Shown here: piece by piece, positions 18,502 through 60,814 of the stretch | Numbering within the stretch: position 1 is the stretch's first letter | How the letters are laid out: every line of letters starts with the position of its first letter | DNA from: an uncultured Lachnospiraceae bacterium | GTDB lineage: Bacteria > Bacillota > Clostridia > Lachnospirales > Lachnospiraceae | Length of the DNA: 63,210 nucleotides | Direction: 5' to 3' | Assembly (NCBI GenBank): GCA_947623805.1 | Contig: CANQHZ010000007.1 | Coordinates: 1-63,210, forward strand | The notes under the pieces: model-generated | Told to the model about the DNA's origin: nothing | Databases searched by the model: none | What the model saw: the letters and a program-made list of their open reading frames with translations, nothing else | Translations under genes and position numbers: made by a program

Positions 18502-18816
18502 ATGGCGATACATGATAGGATAAATGAAAAGAGTCCCTGGACGGATATAACGGAAGGGAACAAGATATATGAGGCGGCGACTTCGAGGGACTTTTGTACG
18601 GGCGAGTGGAGGACCTCGACGCCGATTTGGGATGATGAAAAGTGCAGGCAGTGCTTGCTGTGTGCGCCTGTATGTCCTGATTCGTCAATTCCTGTGAGAA
18701 AAGGGGAGAGGATGGATTTTGACTATATGCATTGTAAGGGGTGCGGTATATGTGCGAAGGTGTGTCCGTTTGGGGCGATATATATGAGAGAGGGAAAGAA
18801 TGAAAAGATTTTCTAA
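18502..18816 (+). CDS. porD: 2-oxoacid (pyruvate):ferredoxin oxidoreductase, delta subunit (2 x 4Fe-4S)
   Basis: A 104-residue ferredoxin-like subunit that takes electrons from the thiamine-bound intermediate through two 4Fe-4S clusters. Both cluster motifs are complete: CRQCLLCAPVCP (about 47-58) and CKGCGICAKVCP (about 76-87), each C-x2-C-x2-C-x3-CP. The N-terminal 45 residues match the PorD extension that packs on the core (KSPWTDITEGNK, then CTGEWRT). GGAGG precedes the ATG. The stop TAA (18814-18816) lies inside the left stem of the AAAAGAC hairpin element. Confidence 0.93.
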   Translation: MAIHDRINEKSPWTDITEGNKIYEAATSRDFCTGEWRTSTPIWDDEKCRQCLLCAPVCPDSSIPVRKGERMDFDYMHCKGCGICAKVCPFGAIYMREGKNEKIF

Positions 18817-18873
18817 GGCACTAAAAGACGGTGCCTAAGAAAATCTAAGTTTCATTCTGAGAAAAGATTTTCT
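18806..18873 (+). other. AAAAGAC hairpin element, copy 1, with competing third strand
   Basis: A 41-nt hairpin (18806-18846): 9-bp outer stem AGATTTTCT/AGAAAATCT, an A.A mismatch, a 6-bp inner stem AGGCAC/GTGCCT, a T.G closing pair and loop AAAAGAC. It overlaps the end of porD. A second AGATTTTCT (18865-18873) can compete for the right arm, so two folds exclude each other. It sits between porD and porA and could set subunit ratios by termination or RNA processing (inference). Confidence 0.7.
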
Positions 18874-18874
18874 A

Positions 18875-18898
18875 AATTCTATGTTGTTGAATAAAGTG
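18875..18898. repeat. Solo end of the palindromic repeat family 1
   Basis: AATTCTATGTTGTTGAATAAAGT matches the right flank of full copies (for example 23479-23500). The downstream 45 bp also resemble the sequence between copy A and clpB. The left half of the element is absent and replaced by the AAAAGAC hairpin. Confidence 0.6.
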
Positions 18899-18941
18899 AA
18901 TAAAGTAAAAAAATGTTTATTGTAAAAAGGAGAAAGTAAGG

Positions 18942-20126
18942 ATGGCCATTAGGGAGAGATTGTCTGGAAATGAGGCTGTGGCGTATGCGATTAAGCAGAT
19001 TAATCCGGATGTGATGCCGGCATTTCCGATTACGCCGTCTACGGAGATACCGCAGTATGTGGCAAATTACATAGCAAACGGCGAGATAGATACGGAGTTT
19101 ATACATGTGGAGAGTGAACATAGTGCGATGAGTGCGACTGTGGGGGCGTCGGCAGCGGGTGCGAGGGCTGTGACGGCGACTTCATCATGTGGCATGGCGC
19201 TTATGTGGGAGGAGCTTTATGTGGCGGCGTCAAACAGGCTGCCTATAGTGCTGGCTCTTGTAAACAGGGCGCTTTCGGGGCCGATAAATATTAATGCGGA
19301 CCATTCGGACAGTATGGGCGCGAGGGATTCTGGTTGGATTCAGATTTATGCGGAGTCAAATCAGGAGGTGTATGATAATTATATTCAGGCGTTTCCGATT
19401 GCGGAAAACAAAAAAGTGCATCTTCCTGTGATGGTATGTCAGGACGGCTTTATTACAAGCCATGGTGTGGAGAACATTATGCTTATCGAAGATGATAAGG
19501 TTAAGGCGTTTGTGGGCGAGTATGAACCTGAACACTATCTTTTAAATGCTGACGAGCGCATTGCAGTGGGACCGTATGCTGTATCAAATTATTATATGGA
19601 AACAAAGCGCGGACAGCGTGAGGCTATGCTGAATGCGCGCGAGGTCATTCTTGAAGTGGCGGAAAAATTCGAGAAAATGACGGGGCGGAAATACGGTTTC
19701 TTTGAGGAATATCGTATGGAAGATGCCGAGTATGCGGTAGTAATCATAGGCTCTGCGGCAGGTACGTGTAAGGCGGCGATAGAGCATATCAGAAGTACCA
19801 CTGGGAAAAAGGTCGGTCTTATCAAAATAAGGGTATTCAGGCCGTTTCCGGAGGAGGAGATAGCACGCGCCCTTGCCAATGTCAAGGCTGTGGCGATTAT
19901 GGACAGAAGCGAGATGTTTGCGGGCACGAGCGGACCGCTTGGCGCGGAAGTGCGTGCGGCAATGTATCAGGCGCATGCCAAGGCGGAGGTCGTAAATTAT
20001 TTCTACGGACTTGGCGGCAGGGATATCACTGTTTCTGATTTTGAAAGAGTATATGAAAATCTTGAAAAGATGGCTGAAACACATACGGTTATCGGAATGT
20101 ATGATTATATAGGATTGCGTGAATAA
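18942..20126 (+). CDS. porA: 2-oxoacid (pyruvate):ferredoxin oxidoreductase, alpha subunit
   Basis: A 394-residue alpha subunit containing the pyrimidine-binding domain and the 2-oxoacid pocket. FPITPSTEIPQYVANYI near the start, the catalytic-type EHSAMSATVGASAAGARA stretch (Glu-His), and the PorA hallmark NADHSDSMGARDSGWIQ are all visible. The last favours pyruvate over branched-chain acids (inference from PorA sequences). The C-terminal domain has VGLIKIRVFRPFPEEE and MDRSEMFAG. AAAGGAGAAAG precedes the ATG. It partners with porB 50 bp downstream. Confidence 0.93.
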   Translation: MAIRERLSGNEAVAYAIKQINPDVMPAFPITPSTEIPQYVANYIANGEIDTEFIHVESEHSAMSATVGASAAGARAVTATSSCGMALMWEELYVAASNRLPIVLALVNRALSGPININADHSDSMGARDSGWIQIYAESNQEVYDNYIQAFPIAENKKVHLPVMVCQDGFITSHGVENIMLIEDDKVKAFVGEYEPEHYLLNADERIAVGPYAVSNYYMETKRGQREAMLNAREVILEVAEKFEKMTGRKYGFFEEYRMEDAEYAVVIIGSAAGTCKAAIEHIRSTTGKKVGLIKIRVFRPFPEEEIARALANVKAVAIMDRSEMFAGTSGPLGAEVRAAMYQAHAKAEVVNYFYGLGGRDITVSDFERVYENLEKMAETHTVIGMYDYIGLRE

Positions 20127-20150
20127 TAGCGTTTTTCGTTATGATTTATA

Positions 20151-20164
20151 GCCGCTAAAGCGGC
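20151..20164 (+). other. Short GC hairpin before the porB ribosome site
   Basis: A perfect 6-bp stem GCCGCT/AGCGGC with AA between, ending 3 bp before the ATGGAGG that holds the porB ribosome site. It may influence porB translation or processing of the porA-porB mRNA (inference). Confidence 0.45.
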
Positions 20165-20176
20165 ATGGAGGATAGT

Positions 20177-21124
20177 ATGGAACAGGTTTGGGAAAAAGCA
20201 TATGATTTTAAGAAAGTTTTGAGTAAGCCTGAGCGTCTTGCGGGCGGGCATAGGATGTGCGCGGGATGTGGCGGTACAGTTACTGTGCGGACTGTGTTAA
20301 GAGCATTGGAGGAGGGCGACAGGGCTGTAATCGGAAATGCGACAGGCTGCCTTGAGGTTTCCTCGTTTATGTATCCTTATACGGCATATGAGGACAGTTA
20401 CATACACAACGCGTTTGAAAACGCGGGCGCGACGCTTTCAGGCGTTGAAACCGCTTATAATGTGCTTAAGAAAAAAGGCAAAATAAAGGAAAACTTTAAG
20501 TTTATTACTTTTGGCGGTGACGGCGGCACATATGATATAGGCTTTCAGTCATTATCAGGGGCAATGGAGCGCGGTCACGACATGGTGTATGTGTGCTATG
20601 ATAACGGCGCGTATATGAATACCGGTACGCAGCGTTCATCTGCCACGCCGCAGTATGCCGATACTACTACAACTCCCGCAGGAAAGGTTTCGGCGGGGAA
20701 AGTTCAGGTGCGTAAGGATTTGGCAGCTATCATAGCGGAGCATCACGTACCGTATGTGGGGCAAAGTACATTTACGGCAAATTTCAAGGACTTGTATACA
20801 AAGGCGCAGAAAGCGATTTATACGCCTGGCCCCGCTTTCTTAAATGTAATGTCACCGTGTCCGAGGGGCTGGGGATATGAGCCGAGCGAGATGATGAATA
20901 TTTGCAAGCTTGCGATAGATACCTGCTACTGGACAATGTTTGAAGTGATTGACGGCAAATGGGTACTTAATTATGAGCCAAAGAATAAGCTGCCGATAGA
21001 GGACTTTTTAAGGCCGCAGAGACGCTTTAAGCATCTTTTCAAAAAGGAGAATGAGGAGCTTATACCGCTGTTCCAGGCAGAGGTTGACAAGCGCTGGGAG
21101 GAGCTCAGGAATAGGTGCGAGTAG
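20177..21124 (+). CDS. porB: 2-oxoacid (pyruvate):ferredoxin oxidoreductase, beta subunit
   Basis: A 315-residue beta subunit binding thiamine pyrophosphate and one 4Fe-4S cluster. The start at 20177 has GGAGGATAGT upstream; the ATG at 20165 would place this ribosome site inside the gene. Cluster cysteines appear in HRMCAGCGGT and ATGCLEVSS. The TPP motif is GGDGGTYDIGFQSLSGA followed by YVCYDNGAYMNTGTQ (GDG...N). The PCPRGW motif follows. The length is normal for PorB. It ends the operon, and the next coding frame begins 60 bp later. Confidence 0.93.
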   Translation: MEQVWEKAYDFKKVLSKPERLAGGHRMCAGCGGTVTVRTVLRALEEGDRAVIGNATGCLEVSSFMYPYTAYEDSYIHNAFENAGATLSGVETAYNVLKKKGKIKENFKFITFGGDGGTYDIGFQSLSGAMERGHDMVYVCYDNGAYMNTGTQRSSATPQYADTTTTPAGKVSAGKVQVRKDLAAIIAEHHVPYVGQSTFTANFKDLYTKAQKAIYTPGPAFLNVMSPCPRGWGYEPSEMMNICKLAIDTCYWTMFEVIDGKWVLNYEPKNKLPIEDFLRPQRRFKHLFKKENEELIPLFQAEVDKRWEELRNRCE

Positions 21125-21183
21125 GTATAGACATCGGGGTGTCAGGCAGAATATTTGATGATATTAATAGGATGAGGCAAAAT

Positions 21184-22377
21184 ATGAATAAAAAATTTAT
21201 TTTTGCGACATTGATTTTTACTCTTGTATTTGGCTATGGCATAACTGCATATGCGCAGCCTGAGATGATGTCGGACGGTACTGTTTTTGACGCTGAATAT
21301 TATGCGGCGGCATATCCCGATGTGGCGGCTGCGGTGGGACATGATAAGGAAGCCTTGTATCTGCATTATACTACTTTCGGAAAATCAGAGGGTCGTTTGG
21401 CGACTAATCCGGATGACGCCGAAAAGGTGGCAAAAATGCAGTCAGAAATCAAGACAGTTACGATATCTTTTGCGGGAGACTGTACATTGGGCGGCTACAA
21501 GGGGCAGGGCAGAGGGAACCAATGGCGTGATTACTACGAGCTGTATGGCAATGATTATTTCTTTAAAAATGTAAAGGAAATTTTTGAAAATGATGATATT
21601 ACGTTTGTAAATCTTGAGGGCGCGCTGACACAACATGAGCAGGTTGTTGAAAAGACATATCCAATCAAGGGCGAGCCAGAGCACGTAGGAGCCTTGCTTA
21701 GCGGCTCGATAGAGGCTGTAAGCATGGCAAACAATCACACATATGACTGCGGGCAGTCAGGCTATGATTCGTGCAGACAGTTATTGACTGACAATGGCAT
21801 TGCATACTGTGGCGGGACGCAAACATGTACTTTGGAGCGAAACGGCGTGAAAGTGGGCTTTATAGGGCTTAACTGTCTGGGAAACAGCGTCAGTTCATTG
21901 ACGGGCAGCCTAAAAAGACTTACAGCGGATTTGCGGGGCAATGGGTGCAGCATTATTTGTGTTATGTTCCATGGCGGAATTGAGGGCGAATATGAAAGCA
22001 ACGCTGCAACGGAGGCATTTGCGCATAGCGCTGTGGATTGCGGAGCCGATATTGTTATCGGTGCACACCCTCATGTGGTACAGGGCATTGAGATATATAA
22101 CGGAAAGGTTATCTGCTATAGCTTAGGCAATTTCAGTTTTGGAGCAAACAGAAATCCGCAGGATAAAGACACATTTATATTTCAGCAGACATTTATGGTA
22201 GGAAACGACGGTAAGGCGTTTTACGGTAAAAGCAATGTAATTCCATGCAAAATATCGTCTACGGACACAAAGAATGATTACTGTCCGACGCCTCAGACGG
22301 GAGCAGAGTATGACCGCATAATGCAGAAGTTGGAAAGAAGCAGCAGAAAATATTCTGTAAGTTATTTTGATATGTAA
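21184..22377 (+). CDS. Secreted CapA-like metallophosphatase-fold protein
   Basis: A 397-residue protein from the ATG at 21184 (MNKKFIFATLIF), which begins a clear signal peptide ending about AYA (residue 22). A 45-residue module FDAEYYAAAYPDVAAAVG...HYTTFGKSEGR follows, a repeat unit often found in clostridial surface proteins. The rest is a CapA/PgsA-type calcineurin-like fold: ISFAGDCTLGG, VNLEGALT, MANNHTYDCG, MFHGGIEGEY and GAHPHVVQGIE with SLGNFSFG. CapA proteins act in poly-gamma-glutamate capsule synthesis, but no capB/capC is here, so the substrate is unknown. It ends at a terminator. Confidence 0.85.
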   Translation: MNKKFIFATLIFTLVFGYGITAYAQPEMMSDGTVFDAEYYAAAYPDVAAAVGHDKEALYLHYTTFGKSEGRLATNPDDAEKVAKMQSEIKTVTISFAGDCTLGGYKGQGRGNQWRDYYELYGNDYFFKNVKEIFENDDITFVNLEGALTQHEQVVEKTYPIKGEPEHVGALLSGSIEAVSMANNHTYDCGQSGYDSCRQLLTDNGIAYCGGTQTCTLERNGVKVGFIGLNCLGNSVSSLTGSLKRLTADLRGNGCSIICVMFHGGIEGEYESNAATEAFAHSAVDCGADIVIGAHPHVVQGIEIYNGKVICYSLGNFSFGANRNPQDKDTFIFQQTFMVGNDGKAFYGKSNVIPCKISSTDTKNDYCPTPQTGAEYDRIMQKLERSSRKYSVSYFDM

Positions 22378-22388
22378 ATAATAAAATC

Positions 22389-22443
22389 AAAAAGGTCTGA
22401 GCTTTGTAAAAAAGTTTCGGACCTTTTTACAAAACTCAGACCT
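22389..22443. terminator. Bidirectional terminator with two overlapping hairpins
   Basis: Hairpin 1 pairs 22389-22399 with 22418-22428 (AAAAAGGTCTG/CGGACCTTTTT, one G.T). Hairpin 2 pairs 22393-22411 with 22425-22443 over 19 bp with one mismatch. The two cannot form together. The element separates convergent genes. Confidence 0.8.
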
Positions 22444-22469
22444 GTAAAATCATGAAAGCGGCTGAATGA

Positions 22470-23183
22470 TTACGATGTGAGCGAAGCCTCAAATTCCTGT
22501 CTGGCAGCCTCTATCTCAGCCTGTTTTTTTGCTTCGTCTTCTGCGGCCTCGCGCATGAGACGTTCATATATGGCGTTTGCCTCTTTTATTATCTCGTCCT
22601 GTTCGGGCGGGAGCACTACCTCTTTTGTGTTTCTGGAGCTGTATATTGAGCTGCTACTGGCACTTTGGACGGGTGCAAAATTTTGCACGCCGCCGGATAT
22701 CAGCGAATCGACATTGCCTTGATTGCTTGATATGCTTAAGATAGCATCGAGAGCTGCCTGAGTATCGGCATCTACGGGTTTCTGACCGTACAGTCCTGAA
22801 TATGAACCTGTGGTGGCATTATATGCGGAGCTGTCCTCTATTGACATATCGGATGCTGCCATATCTGCTGCCGAAGCCTCAGCTTCTTTTTGTTCGAGTG
22901 CGAGCCGTTCTTCTTCGGCTTCAATGCGCAGAGCTTCTTCTTTTTCTTCGGGAGAAGGCCATATACGGAATACTTCGGGATTATATGTAACTAACCACCA
23001 TTTTATCACATGGGGATAATATCTCTTGAAAAAACAAGCTGTGGCAACGTCCGTCATCTGATTACACCATCTTTCACACATATATATACCTATTTTAACA
23101 TATATCGGCAAAAATCCATAGACCAAAAAGAATATTTGTATAAATTTTATAAAAATTTTCCACAATTCCGATGTTTTTTTCAT
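22470..23183 (-). CDS. Membrane-anchored coiled-coil protein, unknown
   Basis: A 237-residue protein. One or two hydrophobic stretches at the N-terminus (about 8-36, IFIKFIQIFFLVYGFLPIYV) are followed by an aromatic/basic juxtamembrane part. A low-complexity region rich in Glu/Ala/Ser and a C-terminal helical charged segment (about 195-235, likely coiled coil) complete it. I recognise no family. The start is uncertain: the ATG at 23183 lacks a good ribosome site, and a later Met (MCERW) is possible but would lose the membrane helix. Confidence 0.5.
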   Translation of the reverse strand: MKKTSELWKIFIKFIQIFFLVYGFLPIYVKIGIYMCERWCNQMTDVATACFFKRYYPHVIKWWLVTYNPEVFRIWPSPEEKEEALRIEAEEERLALEQKEAEASAADMAASDMSIEDSSAYNATTGSYSGLYGQKPVDADTQAALDAILSISSNQGNVDSLISGGVQNFAPVQSASSSSIYSSRNTKEVVLPPEQDEIIKEANAIYERLMREAAEDEAKKQAEIEAARQEFEASLTS

Positions 23184-23272
23184 GTGCGCGGTAATAAGGA
23201 TTATGTGTTAAGTCAAGCTGTGCGAGGAATTGTAAATTAAAAATAAAAACAATGATAATAATATAAATTGAA

Positions 23273-23300
23273 TTGACAATATGAAAAACTATGTTATAGT
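23273..23300 (+). promoter_or_regulatory. Sigma-A promoter upstream of clpB
   Basis: Perfect TTGACA (23273-23278), 16-bp spacer, TATAGT (23295-23300). The transcript would carry palindromic repeat copy A in its 240-nt leader. No CIRCE and no clear CtsR direct repeat is seen, so how clpB is heat-induced here is unclear. Confidence 0.75.
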
Positions 23301-23370
23301 AGATATAGAACAGATGAAACAATGACAACTTTATATTTCCTTGATTTTAAAATTGAGGGATATGTATTAG

Positions 23371-23511
23371 GTGTTGCGAAAGGTTTTCTAAGCCGGCCGA
23401 ATTTAGTCAAAATATATAAAAAATCGGCTAGGTGCAGCAAGCTGCAAGACGCCGCTTATTTTATATATTTTGACTAAATTCTATGTTGTCGAATAGAGTT
23501 TCGCAAATGCC
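23371..23511 (+). repeat. Palindromic MITE-like repeat family 1, copy A
   Basis: Core arms GAATTTAGTCAAAATATATA and its complement, ending TGACTAAATTC, enclose CGGC...GCCG and an inner TGCAGC/GCTGCA hairpin. Terminal inverted ends are TTGCGAAA (left) and TTTCGCAA (right). It lies in the clpB leader, between promoter and gene. Confidence 0.85.
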
Positions 23512-23546
23512 TGGAGAGATTTATTGTAAAGAAAAGGAGGATAGTT

Positions 23547-26135: not shown

Positions 26136-26147
26136 TGATGGATTTTG

Positions 26148-26183
26148 AAAAACGCACTTGCGGGGATTGCAGGTGCGTTTTTT
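26148..26183 (+). terminator. Terminator of clpB
   Basis: A 14-bp stem (26148-26161 with 26169-26182, one G.T pair), a 7-nt loop and a T run that forms the right arm. It starts 12 bp after the clpB stop. Confidence 0.9.
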
Positions 26184-26365
26184 GTATGCTTTGACTTTGA
26201 TATGTGGCCGTAGCATATGAAATTTTATTGTAATTTACCTCATATTTTAGTAAGTGAATTAATATTTTTTATGTTTGAATATAGATAATGATGTTACCAT
26301 ATCTAAACAAAATTTTAAAAAGTTGTATTAATTTTGACATTTCAGCATTTATTTTTGCTAAATGC
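26184..26365. other. AT-rich spacer without recognised features
   Basis: About 180 bp of AT-rich sequence between the clpB terminator and the next promoter. I see no gene, repeat or strong hairpin in it. Confidence 0.5.
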
Positions 26366-26394
26366 TTGTCAAAAATCTGTTGTTTTGTTAGAAT
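26366..26394 (+). promoter_or_regulatory. Promoter of the Rpn-family gene
   Basis: TTGTCA (26366-26371), 17-bp spacer, TAGAAT (26389-26394). The leader is about 230 nt before the Rpn-family start and contains a coupled small open frame. Confidence 0.7.
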
Positions 26395-29680: not shown

Positions 29681-29844
29681 ATTTGCGAAGGTTAGTCTAA
29701 TGAGTCCGAATTTAGTCAAAATATATAAAAATCGCATCAATGTACTGTATCGCAGATACAGTACATATGTGCAGCAAGCTGCAAGACGCTGCTTATTTTA
29801 TATATTTTGCCTAAATTCTATGTTATGGAAAGAGTTTTGTAAAT
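29681..29844 (+). repeat. Palindromic repeat family 1, copy B, with loop insert
   Basis: About 164 bp starting 10 bp after the pstC stop. The core arms are as in copy A. The loop carries an extra perfect 11-bp hairpin, TGTACTGTATC/GATACAGTACA around GCA (29741-29765), before the usual GCAGCAAGCTGC. Terminal ends are ATTTGCGAAG and TTTTGTAAAT. Confidence 0.88.
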
Positions 29845-30736: not shown

Positions 30737-30744
30737 CAGAGCTG

Positions 30745-30908
30745 CTGCGGAATGTGTTCTAAGCCGTCCGAATTTAGTCAAAATATATAAAAATCGCATC
30801 AATGTACTGTATCGCAGATACAGTACATATGTGCAGCAAGCTACAAGACGCTGCTTATTTTATATATTTTGCCTAAATTCTACGTTGTCGAGTAGAGTGC
30901 GGTAAACA
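30745..30908 (+). repeat. Palindromic repeat family 1, copy C, with loop insert
   Basis: It starts 8 bp after the pstA stop and is nearly identical to copy B, including the 25-nt hairpin insert (30802-30826). A few substitutions distinguish it (GCTACA for GCTGCA, TACGTTGTCG in the right flank). It lies between pstA and pstB. Confidence 0.88.
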
Positions 30909-31696: not shown

Positions 31697-32334
31697 TGAG
31701 GGATAAATTTAACGAACAGCTTGCATTGCTTAAACAGGAGCTTATGGAAATGGGTGAACTCTGCGAAAAGGTGATAGAACTTGTCGCGTCGGCGCTTTCT
31801 CAGGGCGGCGGCGAGGAAACGGCGGAAGTGGCGGCGCTTGACAGGGAGATTGACGAAAAAGAGAGAAATATTGAGGCGATATGCCTTAGGCTTTTACTGC
31901 AGCAGCAGCCTGTCGCGGGTGATTTGAGGCAGGTTTCGGCGGCGCTTAAAATGGTGACGGATATGGAGCGCATAGGCGACCAGGCGGAGGATATAGCGGA
32001 AATCATAGTATATCTTGGCGGGCGCGTGCCAGAAGAAAGCATACAAATCCGCGAGATGGCGGCTGCCGCGATAAAAATGGTGACAGACAGCGTGAATGCC
32101 TATGTAAAGCAGGACGTGGCGGCAGCCGAGGAGGTTATCGCGTCGGATGATATCGTGGACAATTATTTCGGGAGCGTGCGAAAAAGCCTTATCGGAGTTA
32201 TCGCGCAAAATCCGTCGGATGGAGAGTATGCGCTTGACTTGCTTATGATTGCCAAATATTTTGAACGAATTGGCGACCATGCGGCGAACATCGCGGAATG
32301 GGTGCTGTTTTCGATTACTGGCAAAAAAAATTAA
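31693..32334 (+). CDS. phoU: Phosphate signalling protein PhoU
   Basis: A 213-residue all-helical protein with two PhoU repeats (about 10-95 and 110-200). Metal-binding-type motifs are [14 protein letters not shown] (about 95) and [14 protein letters not shown] (about 190), the E-R-x-G-D pair typical of the family. PhoU links PstB to the PhoR kinase and holds the Pho response off when phosphate is plentiful (family knowledge). The start overlaps the pstB stop. The stop lies 11 bp before AAAAGAC hairpin copy 2. Confidence 0.95.
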
Positions 32335-32345
32335 GAAAAAAATTA

Positions 32346-32420
32346 AGAAACACTAAGGCTGTAAAAGACGCAGCCTAAGTGTTTCTAAATTTTTAGAAAA
32401 ACGCAAGGGCGGCGTTTTTC
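32346..32420 (+). other. AAAAGAC hairpin element, copy 2, with second hairpin
   Basis: Hairpin 32346-32386: outer AGAAACACT/AGTGTTTCT (9 bp), A.A mismatch, inner AGGCTG/CAGCCT, T.G pair, loop AAAAGAC. It is followed by CTAAATTTTTAG and a second hairpin GAAAAACGC/GCGTTTTTC (32396-32420). It stands at the end of the pst operon and may end or protect the transcript. Confidence 0.75.
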
Positions 32421-32467: not shown

Positions 32468-32496
32468 TTGAAATATGAATGTAGGCGCGTTATAAT
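32468..32496 (+). promoter_or_regulatory. Sigma-A promoter of the phoBR-like pair
   Basis: TTGAAA (32468-32473), 17-bp spacer, perfect TATAAT (32491-32496), 39 bp before the regulator start. No clear Pho box was seen here. Confidence 0.8.
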
Positions 32497-33235: not shown

Positions 33236-33376
33236 TGTATGCGAAGTTTTATTCGATAACATAGAATTTAGGCAAAATATATAAAATAAGCGGCGTCTTG
33301 CTGCGTAGCAGCACCTAGCCGCGTTTTTATATATTTTGCCTAAATTCGGACGGTTGAGAAAACATTTCGCAAATAC
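33236..33376 (-). repeat. Palindromic repeat family 1, copy D (inverted)
   Basis: The element is inverted relative to copies A-C, between the regulator and kinase genes, starting 18 bp after the regulator stop. It shows the best terminal inverted ends (TATGCGAAG and TTTCGCAAATA). The inner loop reads TGCTGC GTA GCAGCA, a compensated variant of the usual TGCAGC AA GCTGCA. Confidence 0.88.
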
Positions 33377-35769: not shown

Positions 35770-35901
35770 CGAATGTGTTCTAAGCCGTCCGAATTTAGTC
35801 AAAATATATAAAAAAGCGGCTAGGTGCAGCAAGCTGCAAGACGCCGCTTATTTTATATATTTTGACTAAATTCTATGTTGTCGAATAGAGTTTCGCAAAC
35901 G
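35770..35901 (+). repeat. Palindromic repeat family 1, copy E
   Basis: It lies between the MBOAT gene (stop at 35963, minus strand) and the SGNH gene, which it separates within a probable operon. Arms and the TGCAGC/GCTGCA loop match copy A closely. Confidence 0.88.
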
Positions 35902-40976: not shown

Positions 40977-41023
40977 AAAAGCCAAATCTCTCTGCAGATT
41001 TAATGTAGGAGTATTTGGCTTTT
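40977..41023 (+). terminator. Terminator of htpG
   Basis: An 11-bp stem AAAAGCCAAAT (40977-40987)/ATTTGGCTTTT (41013-41023) with a 25-nt loop containing a CTGCAG core, located 14 bp after the stop. Confidence 0.8.
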
Positions 41024-41040
41024 GGTTGTATTAGGTGATT

Positions 41041-41172
41041 GTGAAATGTGTTCTAAACAGTCCGAATTTAGTCAAAATATATAAAAACGCGGCTAGGTGC
41101 AGCAAGCTGCAAGACGCCGCTTATTTTATATATTTTGCCTAAATTCTATGTTGTCGAATAAAGTTTCGCAAG
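41041..41172 (+). repeat. Palindromic repeat family 1, copy F
   Basis: Between htpG and the GH106-like gene. Left arm GAATTTAGTCAAAATATATA, right arm ending TGCCTAAATTC. It has the inner GCGGC/GCCGC stem and the TGCAGC/GCTGCA loop, with terminal GTTTCGCAAGTG. Confidence 0.88.
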
Positions 41173-43420: not shown

Positions 43421-43452
43421 GTGATTGCAAAGGGCTTTTTGGTGATAGGTAA

Positions 43453-43590
43453 TTGCTAAATGTGTTCTAAGCCGTCCGAATTTAGTCAAAATATATAAAA
43501 ACGCGGCTAGGTGCAGCAAGCTGCAAGACGCCGCTTATTTTATATATTTTGCCTAAATTCTATGTTGTTGAATAGAGTTTTGTAAATGCC
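43453..43590 (+). repeat. Palindromic repeat family 1, copy G
   Basis: Between two convergent glycosidase genes, 33 bp after the GH106-like stop. Its core is nearly identical to copy F. The right end reads GAGTTTTGTAAATGCC, and the flank is duplicated 73 bp further on. Confidence 0.88.
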
Positions 43591-43642
43591 TATTTCTGAT
43601 GATAAGTGCAGGCGTCAGAAATTTACCCAATAGTAATCAAAA

Positions 43643-52117: not shown

Positions 52118-52134
52118 GGTAACAATGAGGGAAA

Positions 52135-52171: not shown

Positions 52172-52217
52172 ATAAAATTATATTTATCAATTATGATAGA
52201 AAATGGAGGGATTTAAT

Positions 52218-52925: not shown

Positions 52926-52935
52926 GTCGTATTAG

Positions 52936-53064
52936 GCATTTGCGAAACTTTATTCGACAACATAGAATTTAGGCAAAATATATAAAATAAGCGGCGTCTC
53001 GCGGAGCGCCTAGCCGCGTTTTTATATATTTTGACTAAATTCGGACGGTTTAGAACACGCATAG
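52936..53064 (-). repeat. Palindromic repeat family 1, copy H (inverted, short loop)
   Basis: Between the DUF5058 gene and its partner, starting 11 bp after the stop. The inverted arms are GAATTTAGGCAAAATATATA and ATATATTTTGACTAAATTC. The loop is shortened to GTCTCGCGGAGCGCC. Terminal ends are GGCATTTGCGAAACT and AGAACACGCATAGC. Confidence 0.88.
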
Positions 53065-53086
53065 CAATGTAAGGAGGAAAATAAAA

Positions 53087-53833: not shown

Positions 53834-53869
53834 AACGGAAAATATGCGGAAAATATGCAAAAATAACGA

Positions 53870-53898
53870 TTGACACGGTAAAAATAATGCGATATACT
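53870..53898 (+). promoter_or_regulatory. Promoter of tRNA-Gly
   Basis: Perfect TTGACA (53870-53875), 17-bp spacer, TATACT (53893-53898), 34 bp before the tRNA. Confidence 0.9.
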
Positions 53899-53932
53899 AT
53901 ATCTTGTCCGTGAAAAGCGGACAGGATATAAT

Positions 53933-54005
53933 GCGATAGTGGCGTAGTTGGTAACGCGCGACCTTGCCAAGGTCGAGACCGCGGGTTCGAGCCCCGTCTA
54001 TCGCT
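53933..54005 (+). tRNA. tRNA-Gly (anticodon GCC)
   Basis: A complete cloverleaf. The acceptor stem GCGATAG/CTATCGC is perfect with discriminator T. The anticodon stem CGACC/GGTCG surrounds loop TTGCCAA (anticodon GCC at 53966-53968). The T loop is TTCGAGC. CCA is not encoded. Confidence 0.95.
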
Positions 54006-54019
54006 CTTGTATGAAATGA

Positions 54020-54052
54020 GGAAAGCCTGTAAATAAGGGGCTTTTCTTTTTT
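54020..54052 (+). terminator. Terminator of tRNA-Gly
   Basis: An 8-bp stem GGAAAGCC (54020-54027)/GGCTTTTC (54039-54046) with one G.T pair, followed by six T's. Confidence 0.85.
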
Positions 54053-54150
54053 GTCTATGTTTGTTTTGTCTGAAAATATTTTAAGCTCTTTTTTGAAGTA
54101 GGGCGACTTGTGCATTTCAGAAATGAGAAAATGATTTTAAAGAGTTTATT

Positions 54151-54177
54151 AAAAGGTGTTCATTTTGGACACCTTTT
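54151..54177. terminator. Hairpin before the AAA-ATPase gene
   Basis: A 9-bp stem AAAAGGTGT/ACACCTTTT with a 9-nt loop. It has the look of a weak terminator. I found no strong promoter between it and the gene, so it may act as an attenuator. Confidence 0.5.
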
Positions 54178-54218
54178 ATGTTATTATAAATAAAAAGCCG
54201 CAAGCAGGGAGGCAGGAC

Positions 54219-55931
54219 ATGTCAAGGACCGTCGCCATCGGTGTTCAGGATTTTGAGACCGTTATAACAAACGACTACTTTTATATAGATAAGACACATT
54301 TCATAAAAGAATGGTGGGAGAGCGGTGACAGTGTGACGCTTATCACGCGTCCGCGCCGTTTTGGGAAAACGCTCACTATGAGTATGCTGGAAAAGTTTTT
54401 TTCGTTGAAGTATTCGGGCAGGTGCGATTTGTTTGAAGGGTTGTCTGTTTGGAACGATGAAAAATACCGCGCGCTGCAGGGCACATATCCTGTGATAAGC
54501 CTGAGTTTCGCTAATATAAAAGAAACAGATTATCAGACAACAAGAGAAAAGGTATGCATGATTTTGGCAAAGACTTATTCACGGTATGAGTTTTTGACAG
54601 AAGAAGAAATGCTTACAGAAGGGGAGAAAAAGTATTTTAAAAGCGTGTCGCCTGATATGGATAACACTACGGCAACCATGGCGTTATACCAATTGTCGGA
54701 TTTCCTGTACAGATATTATGGGAAAAAAGTAATAATATTGCTTGATGAATATGATACGCCAATGCAGGAGGCATATGTAAACGGCTATTGGAACGAAATG
54801 GCAGCTTTTATGCGAAGCCTTTTCAATTCAGCATTTAAGACAAACCCATGGCTTGAGCGTGGCATAATGACAGGCATAACGCGGATAAGTAAAGAATCGA
54901 TTTTTTCCGACTTGAACAATTTGGAGGCAGTAACCACAACAACGGAGAAATATGAGACCGCGTTTGGCTTTACGGAGGCAGAAGTATTTGCTGCTATGGA
55001 CGAGTGCGACATAGAGGGCAGGGATAAGGTAAAAGCATGGTACGACGGCTTTACTTTTGGAAGTACGACGGATATATATAATCCATGGTCGATTTTGAAC
55101 TTTTTGAAACATAAAAAATTTGCAGCCTACTGGGCAAATACAAGCTCAAACAGCCTTGTGGCAAGGTTGGTAAGCGAAGCCGGTCCCAATATAAAAGAAA
55201 GTTTTGAAACCCTGCTGTCGGGACATACAATAAAGAGCCAGGTTGATGAGCAAATTGTGTATAATCAGTTGGAAAATGACGAAAATGCCATATGGAGCTT
55301 TCTGTTAGCAAGCGGATATCTCAGGGTTGAAAAGGCGGGGAAATTTGAAGATGTTGACTGGTGGAGCGGTCAGATGCCGGAGTATGAGCTTGCACTTACC
55401 AATCTGGAAGTCAGATATATGTTTGACAATATGGTAAGGCAGTGGTTTGCGGCAGTCAAATCTTCTTATAATACTTTTGTCAAGGCACTTCTTTCAGACA
55501 ATACAAAGGCGATGAACGAATATATGAACCGCGTGTCGAGCGAGGTATTCAGCTGTTTTGATACTGGCAGGAGAAAGTCAGGCAAATCAGAACCGGAACG
55601 CTTTTATCATGGCTTTGTTCTTGGATTGTTGGTAGAGCTTAGGGGCAGGTATCATCTCACATCAAACCGTGAAAGCGGCTTTGGCAGATATGACGTAATG
55701 CTCGAGCCATTGAACAAGAGCGATAATGCGATTATCATAGAGTTTAAGGTGCGTGACACGGATGATGAGCGGACGCTTGCGGACACTGTGAACGCGGCGC
55801 TTGCCCAGATAGATGAAAGACGCTATACCCAAACGCTGACGGATAAGGGCATACCCATGGAAAAAATTAAAAAATACGGCTTTGCATTTGAGGGAAAAAC
55901 AGTCCTGATAAGCGGGCATGAACTGTTATGA
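54219..55931 (+). CDS. AAA-ATPase-like protein with PD-(D/E)XK nuclease domain (DUF1703 type)
   Basis: A 570-residue protein from the ATG at 54219 (MSRTVAIGVQDFE) with GGGAGG upstream. The N-terminus shows YFYIDKTHFIKEWW and the P-loop ITRPRRFGKTLTMSML (about 42-57). A Walker B-like IILLDEYDTPMQEAY follows (about 175), then a sensor GIMTGITRISKESIFSDLNN. The C-terminal 100 residues are a DUF1703/PD-(D/E)XK nuclease-like domain with GFGRYDVMLEP...AIIIEFKV, keeping Asp and Glu-x-Lys. The family is greatly expanded in gut anaerobes; its role is unproven, with mobility or defence suggested. Two small genes follow on the same strand. Confidence 0.88.
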   Translation: MSRTVAIGVQDFETVITNDYFYIDKTHFIKEWWESGDSVTLITRPRRFGKTLTMSMLEKFFSLKYSGRCDLFEGLSVWNDEKYRALQGTYPVISLSFANIKETDYQTTREKVCMILAKTYSRYEFLTEEEMLTEGEKKYFKSVSPDMDNTTATMALYQLSDFLYRYYGKKVIILLDEYDTPMQEAYVNGYWNEMAAFMRSLFNSAFKTNPWLERGIMTGITRISKESIFSDLNNLEAVTTTTEKYETAFGFTEAEVFAAMDECDIEGRDKVKAWYDGFTFGSTTDIYNPWSILNFLKHKKFAAYWANTSSNSLVARLVSEAGPNIKESFETLLSGHTIKSQVDEQIVYNQLENDENAIWSFLLASGYLRVEKAGKFEDVDWWSGQMPEYELALTNLEVRYMFDNMVRQWFAAVKSSYNTFVKALLSDNTKAMNEYMNRVSSEVFSCFDTGRRKSGKSEPERFYHGFVLGLLVELRGRYHLTSNRESGFGRYDVMLEPLNKSDNAIIIEFKVRDTDDERTLADTVNAALAQIDERRYTQTLTDKGIPMEKIKKYGFAFEGKTVLISGHELL

Positions 55932-55950
55932 GAGGTGTGGAGGGATTAAG

Positions 55951-56307
55951 ATGAAAACCATATCATACTTATTAAACGATAATCTGATTATCATAGAGAA
56001 AGGGGCGTACAGGGTTGCCATTATATACCAGCTCAATTATGTAGTGGTGGTCAGCCTTACATATGATGTGGAGGGCAAGCCGTTTGTCCCGTTGGCCAAA
56101 TCGTGCAGTAATGCGGGCGGGGCATATTATGAGTGGCTCCACATTATCGGCAGGTTCATCTGCAAAAATGAGAACAGCAAATATTTCGGCAATCCCAAAA
56201 TAAATGAGCATCTTACAAACGGAAATTTGCGATTTGACGAGTTTCCAAGAGTTTTGCATATTGCGGAGATGGCTATTCAGGAGTGCAAGAAAAACCAGAT
56301 TCTTTAA
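55951..56307 (+). CDS. Small protein of unknown function (118 residues)
   Basis: It starts at the ATG (55951) behind GGAGGGATTAAG, 19 bp after the AAA-ATPase stop; a longer frame beginning inside the ATPase gene is rejected. It is a mixed alpha/beta protein with strands (NLIIIEKGAYRVAIIYQL, YVVVVSLTYDVEG) then helices (AYYEWLHIIGRFICK, PRVLHIAEMAIQECKK). It has no membrane segment. I do not recognise the family. Confidence 0.65.
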   Translation: MKTISYLLNDNLIIIEKGAYRVAIIYQLNYVVVVSLTYDVEGKPFVPLAKSCSNAGGAYYEWLHIIGRFICKNENSKYFGNPKINEHLTNGNLRFDEFPRVLHIAEMAIQECKKNQIL

Positions 56308-56347
56308 TTTTAGCATTATGATAACTTAAGGCGTTGCAGGGGGAAAA

Positions 56348-56554
56348 ATGGAAGATAAAAAGACATTTAAGGAACTATATATTTCAGGAGAAATTGAGTT
56401 TGAAGCGATAGACGATTACAGCTATGAATGGGGAATGAGTGACAATGATTGCACGCTGGCGCAATATCTCGGTCTAAATGCCGATGAGGAGGACGCTTGG
56501 GTGAGTGAGAGCGATGAGGCGCTGCAGGCACTTTTGGACGCGCAGAGACAGTGA
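56348..56554 (+). CDS. Small acidic protein (68 residues), unknown
   Basis: It starts at ATG 56348 with AGGGGGAAAA upstream. The product is very acidic (FEAIDDYSYEWGMSDNDCTL; LNADEEDAWVSESDEAL) and probably helical. It sits 40 bp after the 118-residue gene and 25 bp before the GH95 gene. A ribosome site and plausible codons support it as real, and no function is assigned. Confidence 0.6.
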   Translation: MEDKKTFKELYISGEIEFEAIDDYSYEWGMSDNDCTLAQYLGLNADEEDAWVSESDEALQALLDAQRQ

Positions 56555-56579
56555 GAAATGTAAGCGACAAGAGGGAAAA

Positions 56580-58880
56580 ATGGATATAACATCAGCATAT
56601 AAGGCTAACAAAGCCTGCAGTACAGTAATGTGGTATGGTGCTCCTGCAAGCGACTGGAACGAGGCGCTGCCGCTTGGTAACGGCAGGCTTGGCGCAATGG
56701 TGTTTGGAGGCATAAACGGAGAACATCTTCAGGTAAATGAAGAAAGCATATGGTACGGCGGACCTATGGACAGAAACAATCCAAGCGCTAAGGAAAAACT
56801 TCCGCTAATAAGAAAGCTTATAATGTCAGGGAAGATACATGAGGCAGAGCGGCTATGCAGGCAGGCGCTTGGCGGCACGCCGCAGGGGATGAGAATATAT
56901 CAGACGCTCGGAGATGTTGAGATAAACTATGACTTTGGAAAGCGGATAGAGTATAGTCAGGTCGCACAATATGAGAGAGGACTTGACGTGTCGCGTGCGC
57001 TCGCATATACGCATTTCTTCTATGACGACACAAGCTATGACAGGGAAATATTCATAAGCGCCTCCGATGACGTATGCGTGGCGCATCTAAAGGCGGACGG
57101 CAAAAACAAGCTCTGCCTTGACATAATGCAAACCAGACACCACATATACGAATATTCGCGCAAGGCAGCGGCGGACAGCATAATTCTGGGCGGAAATCTG
57201 GGACGTGACGGCATTGACTACGCCATGATGTGCAAGGCAAAGACGCCTGACGGCAGCATAGAGGTAATAGGCGAGAGTATATCGGTTACAAATGCCTCGG
57301 AGGTATGGATATATTGGAGTGCCGCCACCACATACCGCATAGCTTCGGAAAGCAAGACGCTTGAAGCGGCTTTGATGGAGATTCTTGAAAAAGCATCGCA
57401 GAAAAGCTATACAGAGCTAAAAAGCAGCCATATAAATGACTACAAATCGTACTTTGACAGAGTAAGCCTGACATTGTGCGATGAAAAGACGCAGGAAATA
57501 CAAGGCAAAATACCGACCGATGTAAGACTTAAAAATATCGCGGAGGGTAAGGACGACCCCGCGTTGGAGCAGCTTTATTTCAATTTTGGCAGATACCTAC
57601 TCATAAGCTGCAGCCGCCCTGGCACACTTCCCGCGACGCTCCAGGGCTTATGGAACAAGGACATGGAAGCGCCCTGGGATTCAAAATACACAATCAACAT
57701 AAACACGGAGATGAATTATTGGTGTGCCGAGCCGTGTGATTTGGGCGACTGCCACACGCCGCTTTTTGACCTGATGAAAAGAATGCTGCCAAACGGCAGA
57801 AAAACCGCGCAGGTCATGTACGGCTGCCGCGGCTTTGTCGCTCATCACAATACGGATATATGGGGAGACACGGCACCGCAGGATTTGTGGATTCCGGGCA
57901 GCTTCTGGGTTATGGGAGGCGCGTGGCTATGTACCCATATATGGATGCATTACGAATATACAGGCGATGAAGCTTTTTTAGCCGAAATGTTTCCTATGAT
58001 GCGCGAAGCTGCGCTGTTTTTCCTTGATTTTATGGTAGAATATGAGCTTGACGGCAAAAAATACCTTTGCACTTGTCCCAGCGTATCGCCTGAAAATACG
58101 TTTATCCTGCAAAATGGCGAGCAGGGCGCAAATACTATAGGCGTGACGATGGACAATCAGATATTGCGCGACTTGTTTACGCAGTGCAATAAAGCGGCAA
58201 AGGTACTTGGCATATCAGACGACCTCGACAGACAGATAAAGGAGGCATGCGATAGGCTGATACCGACGCGCATAGGCAGTGACGGCAGAATACTTGAATG
58301 GTGCGAAGAATATGCGGAAAAAGAGCCCGGACACCGCCACATTTCACATCTTTACGGGCTGCATCCGTCAACGCAGATAACAAAGGACGGTACGCCAAAG
58401 CTTGCGGAAGCGGCGGCGCTTACTCTCCAAAAACGTCTTGAAAGCGGAGGAGGTCATACAGGCTGGAGCAGGGCATGGATAATGAACCATTACGCCAAGC
58501 TTTGGGATGGTGAAAAAGCTCACGAAAACTTAAGACAGCTTTTTATAAATTCAACATTGCCAAATCTTTTTGATAACCACCCGCCTTTTCAAGTCGACGG
58601 TAATTTTGGCTCGATAGCGGCAATGACGGAAATGCTTGTCCAGAGCGACGACAGGCGTATAGTGCTTTTGCCCGCACTGCCTGCGGCGTGGAGAAATGGC
58701 AGGGTAAATGGAATAAAAGTGCGCGGCAATGCTAAAATAAACATAGAATGGAGCGATTTACGATTGGAAAGTGCGCAGATATGCAGCGGAAAGGATTGTA
58801 TGAGGCGTGTGATGTATGATGGAAAGGTGATTGAGCTTGAACTTAAAAAAGACAGGTTGACGGAAATTAAATTTGATTAA
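56580..58880 (+). CDS. GH95 alpha-L-fucosidase (or alpha-L-galactosidase)
   Basis: A 766-residue cytosolic enzyme from the ATG at 56580 (MDITSAYKANKA), with GAGGG upstream. Family signatures are WNEALPLGNGRLGAMVFGG (about 23-41), VNEESIWYGGPMDRNNP, NINTEMNYWCAEPCDLGD with the catalytic-site asparagines, GFVAHHNTDIWGD, EPGHRHISHLYGLHP near the general acid region, and QVDGNFGSIAAMTEML at the end of the alpha/alpha barrel. GH95 enzymes invert alpha-1,2-L-fucosides, and some act on L-galactose in plant xyloglucan or rhamnogalacturonan. The lack of a signal peptide means its substrate is imported. Confidence 0.92.
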   Translation: MDITSAYKANKACSTVMWYGAPASDWNEALPLGNGRLGAMVFGGINGEHLQVNEESIWYGGPMDRNNPSAKEKLPLIRKLIMSGKIHEAERLCRQALGGTPQGMRIYQTLGDVEINYDFGKRIEYSQVAQYERGLDVSRALAYTHFFYDDTSYDREIFISASDDVCVAHLKADGKNKLCLDIMQTRHHIYEYSRKAAADSIILGGNLGRDGIDYAMMCKAKTPDGSIEVIGESISVTNASEVWIYWSAATTYRIASESKTLEAALMEILEKASQKSYTELKSSHINDYKSYFDRVSLTLCDEKTQEIQGKIPTDVRLKNIAEGKDDPALEQLYFNFGRYLLISCSRPGTLPATLQGLWNKDMEAPWDSKYTININTEMNYWCAEPCDLGDCHTPLFDLMKRMLPNGRKTAQVMYGCRGFVAHHNTDIWGDTAPQDLWIPGSFWVMGGAWLCTHIWMHYEYTGDEAFLAEMFPMMREAALFFLDFMVEYELDGKKYLCTCPSVSPENTFILQNGEQGANTIGVTMDNQILRDLFTQCNKAAKVLGISDDLDRQIKEACDRLIPTRIGSDGRILEWCEEYAEKEPGHRHISHLYGLHPSTQITKDGTPKLAEAAALTLQKRLESGGGHTGWSRAWIMNHYAKLWDGEKAHENLRQLFINSTLPNLFDNHPPFQVDGNFGSIAAMTEMLVQSDDRRIVLLPALPAAWRNGRVNGIKVRGNAKINIEWSDLRLESAQICSGKDCMRRVMYDGKVIELELKKDRLTEIKFD

Positions 58881-58960
58881 AGTTTGAAATCATAATGATA
58901 ATTTTATAATATTTTTTATGAAAGATGTGGTAAAATTATATTATGATATAGAACATGCAA

Positions 58961-59094
58961 TTGCGGAATGTGTTTTCAACTGTCCAAGTTTGTGTGAAAT
59001 ATACAAAAACGCGACTTGGTGCGCGATGCGAATCGTCGCTTATTTTGTATATTTCACCCAAACTCTATGTTACTGAGTAGAGTTTCGCAAACAT
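58961..59094 (+). repeat. Palindromic repeat family 1, copy I (diverged, compensated)
   Basis: Between GH95 and the MBL gene. The arms read CCAAGTTTGTGTGAAATATA and TGTATATTTCACCCAAACT. They differ from the consensus at about eight left-arm positions, yet at least five changes are matched in the other arm. The terminal TTTCGCAAAC end is kept. Confidence 0.85.
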
Positions 59095-59134
59095 CTAATA
59101 ATCTAATAATATAAAAGCAAAAGGAGGGATTTCA

Positions 59135-60736
59135 ATGAAATTAACCTTTGTAGGGGCGGACCATCAGGTTACGGGGAGTTGTCATTGTATACAGGCGTGT
59201 GGTAAAAATATTTTGGTTGACTGCGGTATGCAGCAGGGGGCGAATGTTTTTGAGAATTGCGAGCTTCCCGTGGCGGAGTCGGAGATTGACTATGTGTTTT
59301 TGACACATGCGCATATTGACCATTCGGGTAATCTGCCGCTTTTGTACGCTAGGGGTTTTAAGGGAAATGTATATACTACGGAGGCGTCGGCTGATTTATG
59401 CTCGATAATGCTGCGTGATTGCGCTCACATACAGATGCAGGAGGCGGAGTGGAAAAACCGCAAGGCAAAGCGTCATTCAGGGCTTGAAGCTGTAGAGCCG
59501 CTTTATACCATGGAGGATGCTGACGGCATTATCAAGCGAATTGTCCCATGCTCATACAACAGCACTATACAGATATGCGACGGAATTGCGATAAAATTTA
59601 CCGATGTAGGTCATCTTCTTGGTTCGGCGAGTATAGAGGTGTGGCTTACAGAAGATGGTGTTACCAAAAAGATAGTATTTTCAGGTGATATTGGCAACAA
59701 AAACCAGCCGCTTATCAAAGACCCGATTTATACCAGACAGGCGGATTATGTGGTCATGGAGTCGACTTACGGCGACAGGCTGCATACGGACAAAAAGCCT
59801 GAATATGTCAAGGACTTGGCGGATGTCATAGCAAAAACCTTTGCGCGCGGCGGCAATGTGGTAATACCGTCATTTGCCGTAGGCAGGACGCAGGAAATGC
59901 TTTATTTTCTGCGCAAAATCAAGGAGGATAATCTTGTTCCTGATTTCCCGGGGTTTGAGGTATATGTCGACAGTCCGCTTGCGGTTGAGGCGACGGGCGT
60001 TTTCCAGAAAAATATATACACTTGCTTTGACGAGGACGCGATGGAGCTTGTGCGGCGCGGTATAAATCCGATTGCGTTTCCGGGCTTAAAGCTTGCGATT
60101 ACGAGCGATGAGTCGAAAGAAATTAACTTTGACGATACGCCCAAAGTAATTATTTCAGCAAGCGGCATGTGTGAGGCAGGACGTATCAGGCATCATTTGA
60201 AACATAATTTGTGGCGTCCCGAATGTACCATACTGTTTGTAGGTTATCAGGCGGCGGGCACGCTTGGGCGTATACTTGTGGAGGGTACTGATGAAGTCAA
60301 GCTCTTTGGCGAGGTTGTAGAAGTGCGCGCCGAGATAATGCAGCTTCCGGGCATGAGTGGTCACGCCGATAAAAACGGACTTCTCGAGTGGGTAAACGCT
60401 TTTGACAAAAAGCCCGAGCGCGTGTTTGTAGTTCACGGTGAGGACAGCGTTTGCAACGCTTTTGTTGACTGCCTTAAAGATGAATACGGACACAATGCCT
60501 ATGCGCCATACTCGGGTACGCGGGTTGACCTTTTGACGAACACGGTAGAGTACGAGGCGGAGCCTGTTCTTATCAAGAAACGCGCACATGCGGTTTCAGA
60601 CGTATTTGCAAGGCTTTTGGCGGCAGGACAGCGGCTGCTTAATGTTATCCGCAAGAATGAGGGCGGCTCAAATAAGGATTTGGCGCGCTTTGCAGACCAG
60701 ATAAATTCGCTTGCTGACCGGTGGGAAAAAAACTAA
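59135..60736 (+). CDS. MBL-fold/beta-CASP nuclease-like protein
   Basis: A 533-residue metallo-beta-lactamase-fold protein of the beta-CASP (CPSF73-like) RNA-processing group. Metal motifs are complete: THAHIDHSGNLPLL (HxHxDH, about 57), DVGHLLGSASIEVW, and VFSGDIGN (Asp). The beta-CASP domain has VVMESTYGDRLH (motif A), VVIPSFAVGRTQEMLY, ISASGMCEAGRIRHHL (motif B, His), and LPGMSGHADKNGLLEW (motif C, His). It probably cleaves or trims RNA. AGGAGGG precedes the ATG. The stop overlaps AAAAGAC hairpin copy 3. Confidence 0.92.
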   Translation: MKLTFVGADHQVTGSCHCIQACGKNILVDCGMQQGANVFENCELPVAESEIDYVFLTHAHIDHSGNLPLLYARGFKGNVYTTEASADLCSIMLRDCAHIQMQEAEWKNRKAKRHSGLEAVEPLYTMEDADGIIKRIVPCSYNSTIQICDGIAIKFTDVGHLLGSASIEVWLTEDGVTKKIVFSGDIGNKNQPLIKDPIYTRQADYVVMESTYGDRLHTDKKPEYVKDLADVIAKTFARGGNVVIPSFAVGRTQEMLYFLRKIKEDNLVPDFPGFEVYVDSPLAVEATGVFQKNIYTCFDEDAMELVRRGINPIAFPGLKLAITSDESKEINFDDTPKVIISASGMCEAGRIRHHLKHNLWRPECTILFVGYQAAGTLGRILVEGTDEVKLFGEVVEVRAEIMQLPGMSGHADKNGLLEWVNAFDKKPERVFVVHGEDSVCNAFVDCLKDEYGHNAYAPYSGTRVDLLTNTVEYEAEPVLIKKRAHAVSDVFARLLAAGQRLLNVIRKNEGGSNKDLARFADQINSLADRWEKN

Positions 60737-60814
60737 GCAACTCTAAGGACGCAAAAGACGCGTCCTAAGACTTGCTAAGTTTTTTAGAAGAACGCCCTTT
60801 ATGGGGCGTTCTTC
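60736..60814 (+). other. AAAAGAC hairpin element, copy 3, with second hairpin
   Basis: Hairpin 60736-60776: outer AGCAACTCT/AGACTTGCT (8 of 9 paired), A.A mismatch, inner AGGACG/CGTCCT, C-G pair, loop AAAAGAC. It is followed by CTAAGTTTTTTAG and a second hairpin GAAGAACGCCC/GGGCGTTCTTC (60787-60814). The left arm starts at the last base of the MBL stop codon. Confidence 0.75.

Follow-up and report, generated by a model that had tools for sequence, protein, structure and literature searches.

Repetitive extragenic palindromic (REP) elements lie within 20 bp of upstream open reading frame (ORF) ends and often supply the stop codon, according to the available text of one report (PMC3733652), and compensatory hairpin changes in REP and REPIN elements are described in the available part of another (PMC3116915). 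The portion of the GTAG/CGTC superfamily survey at hand does not contain the word Firmicutes. Two Firmicute elements also provide points of comparison, as far as the accessible sections of their descriptions go: SPRITE repeats, found near gene 3′ ends and bearing AAAA/TTTT ends (PMC3049150), and the UNCG-type LoaP hairpin of 5′ leaders (PMC12691694). Here, a stretch of 63,210 nt from an uncultured Lachnospiraceae bacterium (contig CANQHZ010000007.1 of assembly GCA_947623805.1; hereafter the window, meaning the whole stretch analysed) was found to carry three copies of a hairpin in which a fixed core, CTAAG-N5-AAARNAC-N5-CTAAG, caps a longer palindrome. The copies belong to a dispersed palindromic repeat family that is apparently undescribed. 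With a probability of roughly 0.6, it is a new REP/BOX-like family with an unusual sense bias, consisting of DNA palindromes that occur, in the genomes covered here, almost only in Lachnospiraceae.

The three hairpins were confirmed in the window, where the pattern CTAAGG-N4-AAAAGACG-N3-CCTAAG with up to three mismatches occurs three times, compared with a mean of 0.01 in shuffled sequence. An earlier note on this DNA had described them as 41-nt units at gene ends. The 41-nt core stands, but the extent does not, as an additional helix of 7–8 bp had been overlooked and the full hairpins are longer. Beneath the AAAAGAC loop, copies 2 and 3 have helices of 7–8, 9 and 7 bp with A·A mismatches between them, and the full hairpins span 57 and 59 nt, respectively, each with a second A·A mismatch. 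In copy 1, the outer A·A position is replaced by a 3-nt bulge on the 3′ side. The single C·C mismatch that the note had reported is located in copy 3, and second hairpins indeed follow copies 2 and 3. The predicted RNA folds have z-scores of −8.5 for copy 1 and of −7.6 and −9.8 for copies 2 and 3 with their second hairpins. The described proximity to stop codons is also correct. The porD stop codon is contained in copy 1, the stop codon of the gene upstream of copy 2 (32332–32334) ends 3 nt before the start of the full hairpin at 32338, and that of the gene upstream of copy 3 (60734–60736) lies within the 5′ arm.

Further copies with preserved geometry, which the note had anticipated, are abundant. 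With up to two mismatches allowed, the same pattern had 25 matches in the source organism's genome of 3.96 Mb, and a reversed control pattern had 0. A covariance model built on 24 of these copies (L010 was excluded for a deletion) returned 59 rows from this genome, which represent 44 distinct places; in the other 15 rows, a palindrome already counted had been matched on its opposite strand. Near-identical copies occupy unrelated loci, such as L004 and L007. When 60 relatives were searched, matches were found in 33 of 36 same-genus genomes, the source genome included, and in 1 of 24 genomes from other families of the order. Species rich in copies include G003, G013, G019 and G028, and G001, G020 and G029 have none. 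In an even draw across the family, 35 of 200 genomes matched, corresponding to 34 of 199 genera. A pattern scan of named genomes yielded at least 117 stretches. Among the titles listed, most are Lachnospiraceae or Faecalicatena, Eisenbergiella, Muricomes, Butyrivibrio, Parablautia and Anaerocolumna, and some are less exact (Ruminococcus sp., metagenome-assembled genomes labelled Clostridia, Clostridiaceae or Bacillota, Acetivibrio sp. and [Clostridium] symbiosum). Carriers available in culture include Lachnospiraceae bacterium COE1, Parablautia intestinalis and Faecalicatena contorta. A single Chitinophagales match looks like a chance hit. Carriage by phages was rejected on 0 exact core matches among viral contigs; the pattern of the second hairpin alone matched 20 viral stretches. 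No Rfam family, an exact match to which the note had named as evidence against its claim, was matched at the gathering score: the window scan returned a tRNA only, ten further loci returned nothing, and weak miRNA matches were all below the gathering threshold. Searches of full-text literature, in the parts accessible, brought up no description of the repeat, and supplementary lists of candidate RNAs (e.g. PMC8040213) could contain it.

The copies were sorted into types A, B and C by a simple flank rule that misfiled a few of them. Type A, the long hairpin seen in the window, forms a palindrome of ∼60 nt, or ∼85–125 nt when second and third hairpins are included. In 77 diverse type A windows, the invariant letters are the AAARNAC loop and CTAAG on both arms, the latter producing the A·A mismatch. 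The loop reads AAAAGAC in 106 and AAAGGAC in 17 of 145 copies. A second stem follows in 94 of 130 type A copies, in a search that accepted G·T pairs and any nearby stem of at least 7 bp, so that some of the 94 stems are unrelated. In the source genome, 16 places carry the GAANAACGC...GCGTTNTTC stem, and 13 of them adjoin an R1 match. UBA7205-like strains contain a three-hairpin module whose end is apparently the ribosome-binding site of the next gene, and some of their copies have no sense ORF upstream. In type B, known from Eisenbergiella and Butyrivibrio, among others, a long palindrome (CGYAGCGGTA...) bears the core at its tip. The Eisenbergiella versions (L289–L308, L104 and L143) are near-perfect palindromes of more than 100 nt with several loop variants; with up to two mismatches, 28 places were counted in one complete Eisenbergiella genome and 95 in E. 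tayi. Type C is located 5′ of genes in Faecalicatena and Muricomes, in some cases in tandem, and hairpins of this type with ATAAGCA stand directly ahead of genes in Faecalicatena and relatives (L087, L139, L096 and L200).

Type A copies are strongly oriented with respect to the preceding gene. Using ORFs from a crude longest-frame caller, the upstream ORF runs in the same direction in 132 of the 148 copies for which one was called. A caller-free test counted frames that stay open for at least 200 codons and terminate at the element. Among 143 copies, 88 have such a frame on the sense side and 8 on the antisense side, including 5 copies with one on both sides. Sense and antisense counts were 95/11, 88/8 and 69/5 of 143 at thresholds of 150, 200 and 250 codons, respectively. 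At 80 codons, the counts were 114 and 46 of 156 copies, and the antisense control is weak at this threshold because long spurious frames oppose real genes. Of the 156 copies, 114 are preceded by a frame open for at least 80 codons; in 80 of these 114, the stop codon is inside CTAAGG or up to 17 nt before it, and the three most frequent stop positions hold 19, 14 and 21 copies. Additional copies from two close relatives, G028 and G019, follow a sense ORF in 26 of 29 cases (two chance matches, L258, were dropped, and one fetched place, L286, had no match at four mismatches). Strict locking of the orientation to replication was ruled out as the cause of the bias, since each of four G028 contigs has copies on either strand and yet all 9 listed places there share the direction of the preceding ORF. 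Neighbouring copies up to 300 nt apart point in the same direction in 23 of 23 pairs. Convergent neighbours account for 10 of 135 copies and for 68 of 676 in the local background, shares that do not differ, so that selection for any one arrangement of genes is not indicated. For type B in the complete Eisenbergiella genome, the upstream ORF is sense in 11 and antisense in 9 of the 20 places fetched out of 28. Of the features observed, it is the sense orientation at stop codons that speaks for a connection of some kind with transcription.

The stems covary far more than controls, as the note had proposed. In alignment A2, which comprises 77 type A windows after exclusion of 10 of 87 non-redundant windows (nine of type B or C by eye and the Chitinophagales match), 91.5% of cells are paired and 13 of 16 pairs show two-sided changes. 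Doubly changed cells number 224 versus 59.7 in shuffles, and the covariation score is 0.487 versus 0.137, with shuffled and slid alignments as controls. Covariation by itself does not tell which nucleic acid is constrained. If transcribed RNA were under selection, G·U pairs would be expected to exceed A·C pairs. The G·U/A·C counts are 36/31 in the 77 unfiltered non-redundant windows, 30/43 in 127 of 145 type A 41-mers picked by a symmetric filter (27/32 without the closing pair), 13/15 in the second hairpin and 4/6 in the third helix. Type B gave 4/2, a small sample. None of these counts departs from 1:1. The same count in 26 of 27 tRNAs from the same loci was 44/11, which indicates that the test has power here, and Fisher p values against the tRNAs are 1e-5 (filtered), 0.004 (unfiltered), 0.003 (second hairpin) and 0.015 (third helix). 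The stem pairing looks strand-symmetric and fits a DNA palindrome. That the covariation shows an RNA structure is not supported, G·U and A·C being about equal in the stems, unlike in the tRNAs.

Occupancy of the sites changes among close relatives. The porD–porA hairpin is found at 2 of 30 same-genus junctions (the source genome and G019), with an apparent remnant in G028. At the remaining 27 junctions, the stop and start codons are a few bases apart in 19, as judged by eye. The phoU hairpin is present at 3 of 18 loci, one of the 18 being truncated at a contig edge. At the site of copy 3, the relative G026 has the start region of the next gene directly after the hydrolase stop codon and no core at up to six mismatches. 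At the thymidylate synthase gene (thyA), no copy is found in the source genome or G026, and G019 and G028 carry a tandem pair from the stop codon on. G026 is devoid of copies at all four loci compared (por, phoU, copy 3 and thyA). Positions shared between other strains are found mainly at high protein identity. Two separate observations were made at these sites. The copy-free hydrolase gene end of G026 (L267) reads GGGAAAGAAACTAG and resembles the first arm of copy 3, GGGAAAAAAACTAAG (window positions 60722–60736); on this resemblance, copy 3 may have been inserted with the help of matching bases around the stop codon. In two species without the core hairpin (L230 and L231), other palindrome-like stretches are visible by eye at the porD–porA junction, upstream of porA.

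The REP/BOX-like reading draws on copy number and spread, near-identical copies at unrelated loci, fast site turnover, strand-symmetric stems, same-direction neighbours and gene-end placement, and the occurrence of the same core on type B without sense bias was counted in favour of a DNA palindrome. The best reading is that the repeat is a DNA palindrome that moves, or did so until recently, and that its surviving type A copies are those at gene ends in the sense direction, with any effect on mRNA being secondary. The conserved tip would act as a recognition mark on single-stranded or cruciform DNA, and a putative enzyme would read this tip and spread the copies. Antisense or mid-gene insertions would be removed or never made, so that copies remain at gene ends. 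Transcribed copies would fold into stable hairpins, with insulation or stabilisation of the upstream message as a possible secondary effect.

Several points weigh against this reading. Co-directional gene pairs contain 110 sense and 6 antisense copies, which a pure DNA parasite alone does not explain. The only resolved polymorphism, at thyA, may be a loss in the source genome because G019 is nearer to it than G028 by protein identities, and comparison of filled and empty thyA sites yielded no target-site duplication or clean insertion boundary. The G·U/A·C counts take related copies as independent, which weakens the p values, and the tRNA control may include some misregistered stems. A mobilising gene did not emerge either. 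A Y1 transposase match is absent from 4 of 13 genomes, including the copy-rich G005, G013 and G019; no core or copy was found in 22 of 22 fetched Y1 loci or beside the Y1 match of the source genome; and an all-against-all comparison of 1062 ORFs revealed no recurrent carrier gene beside the copies. A carrier gene adjoining the copies was accordingly rejected, the comparison having returned mainly common families such as ABC transporters. The only Y1_Tnp match of the source genome (L202, G000:C60:2874-3230) contains an internal in-frame TAG and looks like a broken IS200-like transposase, with no copy nearby.

The same observations bear on other explanations. The repeat could instead be an RNA element. 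A conserved protein would then bind the transcribed hairpin, directly 3′ of the stop codon, through the CUAAG/CUAAG internal A·A and the AAARNAC loop, and this binding would set mRNA decay, processing or readthrough from one gene to the next. The sense bias at gene ends (88 versus 8), which is also seen in the two-strand G028 contigs (9 of 9 listed places), the sequence conservation of loop and CTAAG above variable stems, the intercistronic copies, including that in the por genes, and the UBA7205-like module finishing at a putative ribosome-binding site are all consistent with such a role. This account is nevertheless unlikely, given that none of the three stems prefers G·U, that sites at the four loci compared are conserved only among close relatives and that the same core is unbiased for sense in one Eisenbergiella genome. 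A transcription-coupled mobile element is quite unlikely. Its machinery would recognise the CTAAG/AAARNAC hairpin, either in RNA or in the exposed non-template strand of DNA, and insert it on the coding strand at stop codons; if it existed, genes would gain ready-made 3′ ends with a stop codon and hairpins and, in certain lineages, also the ribosome-binding site of the following gene.

A role of the first and second hairpins together as a terminator, or as a similar signal for 3′ ends, has a low probability. The copies sit just 3′ of stop codons, and 40 of the 94 second hairpins contain a run of at least four T in the 3′ arm. The other 54 have at most three consecutive T there, however, and at least four T directly after the stem occur in 1 of 94. 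The terminator scan called neither second hairpin of the window, in agreement with the lack of a T tract stated by the note; its sole call among these hairpins was the inner stem of copy 2, owing to the T-rich outer stem of that copy. Together with a share of convergent pairs at background and the location of copy 1 between two por subunit genes, these results argue against a new terminator class, one of the options named in the note, as the general function. A sigma-70-like promoter match (11 of 12) at 32468–32496, between copy 2 and the response-regulator gene, would suit a 3′ end signal, and judged by this match the response-regulator gene may have its own promoter. A strict REP/REPIN family, with a RAYT-type Y1 transposase as its mobiliser, is largely refuted and retains very little probability. 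The gene-end position and stop-codon supply of REPs (PMC3733652) and their compensatory hairpin changes (PMC3116915), as given in the available texts, resemble the repeat. In contrast, among 171 type A copies, GTAG was found no more than 20 nt from either foot of the 41-mer in 18 and CGTC in 1, which does not amount to a REP tag; inverted neighbours number 0 of 23 pairs; and no Y1 gene lies near the copies or in three copy-rich genomes. Integron attC sites, which are also one-directional after stop codons, were set aside on account of the attC motifs, and no dedicated search was made.

Table 1. Positions of the hairpins and other features in the window
Feature	Position	Strand	Details	Basis
Copy 1, full hairpin in the porD–porA interval	18798–18857	+	Core (41 nt) 18806–18846; loop AAAAGAC 18823–18829	Sequence, fold, pattern, flanking genes
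porD stop codon TAA, from CTAAGG of the hairpin	18814–18816	+		Sequence; comparison of porD ends of relatives
Copy 2, full three-helix hairpin 3′ of phoU	32338–32394	+	Core 32346–32386; loop 32363–32369	Sequence, pattern, flanking genes, fold
Second hairpin of copy 2, GAAAAACGC/GCGTTTTTC	32396–32420	+		Stem-pattern match, fold
Copy 3, full three-helix hairpin 3′ of beta-CASP metallo-hydrolase gene	60727–60785	+	Core 60736–60776; one C·C	Sequence, pattern, flanking genes, fold
Second hairpin of copy 3, GAAGAACGCCCC arm	60787–60814	+	Longest T run in 3′ arm, 2	Sequence, stem pattern, fold
Empty site directly 3′ of thymidylate synthase gene	61779–61780	.	Copy present here in close relatives G019 and G028	
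Copies of a second repeat family	23363–23506, 29704–29837, 30740–30898, 33240–33372, 35772–35898, 41017–41150, 43433–43601, 52940–53058, 58959–59115			

The window also contains another dispersed repeat family (Table 1), whose members are ∼115–170 bp long, occur in both orientations and have tens of matches in the source genome and its relatives.

The palindromic repeat with the CTAAG/AAARNAC core adds a seemingly undescribed family to a major gut bacterial family. Its covariation suggests that strong stem covariation without an Rfam match can stem from a dispersed DNA palindrome, and a count of G·U versus A·C pairs offers a cheap check for structured-RNA screens. The cited repeats do not show such a strong sense orientation at stop codons, and its presence here makes the origin of this orientation directly testable.

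In comparison with known systems, intrinsic terminators of Firmicutes share a hairpin after the stop codon, and a T run is likewise present in the 3′ arm of some second hairpins here; the repeat differs in having no T tract after the stem, a conserved loop, internal mismatches and copies within operons. The LoaP antitermination hairpin is likewise a small Firmicute RNA hairpin and is positioned upstream of terminators, as far as the available text describes it, but identity with the repeat was ruled out by its UNCG loop (PMC12691694), and its place in 5′ leaders contrasts with AAARNAC at gene 3′ ends. Miniature inverted-repeat transposable elements (MITEs) resemble the repeat in their inverted-repeat ends, lack of coding capacity and length below 200 bp. 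REP/REPIN elements of the GTAG and CGTC superfamilies are, in the texts available, also short dispersed intergenic palindromes present in tens of copies by ORF ends, with stop-codon supply and compensatory stem changes. They form inverted doublets with a GTAG/CGTC tag and a RAYT, whereas the repeat has same-direction neighbours and a strong sense bias, with no tag or RAYT found. Pneumococcal BOX, RUP and SPRITE are small interspersed Firmicute repeats with folded transcripts, as is the repeat. According to the sections available (PMC3049150), they differ in sequence and host family, lie on the leading strand in ∼61–63% of cases, which mirrors the coding bias, and are enriched between convergent genes, unlike the repeat. 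Among the repeats compared, and on these partial descriptions, they are its nearest Firmicute analogues.

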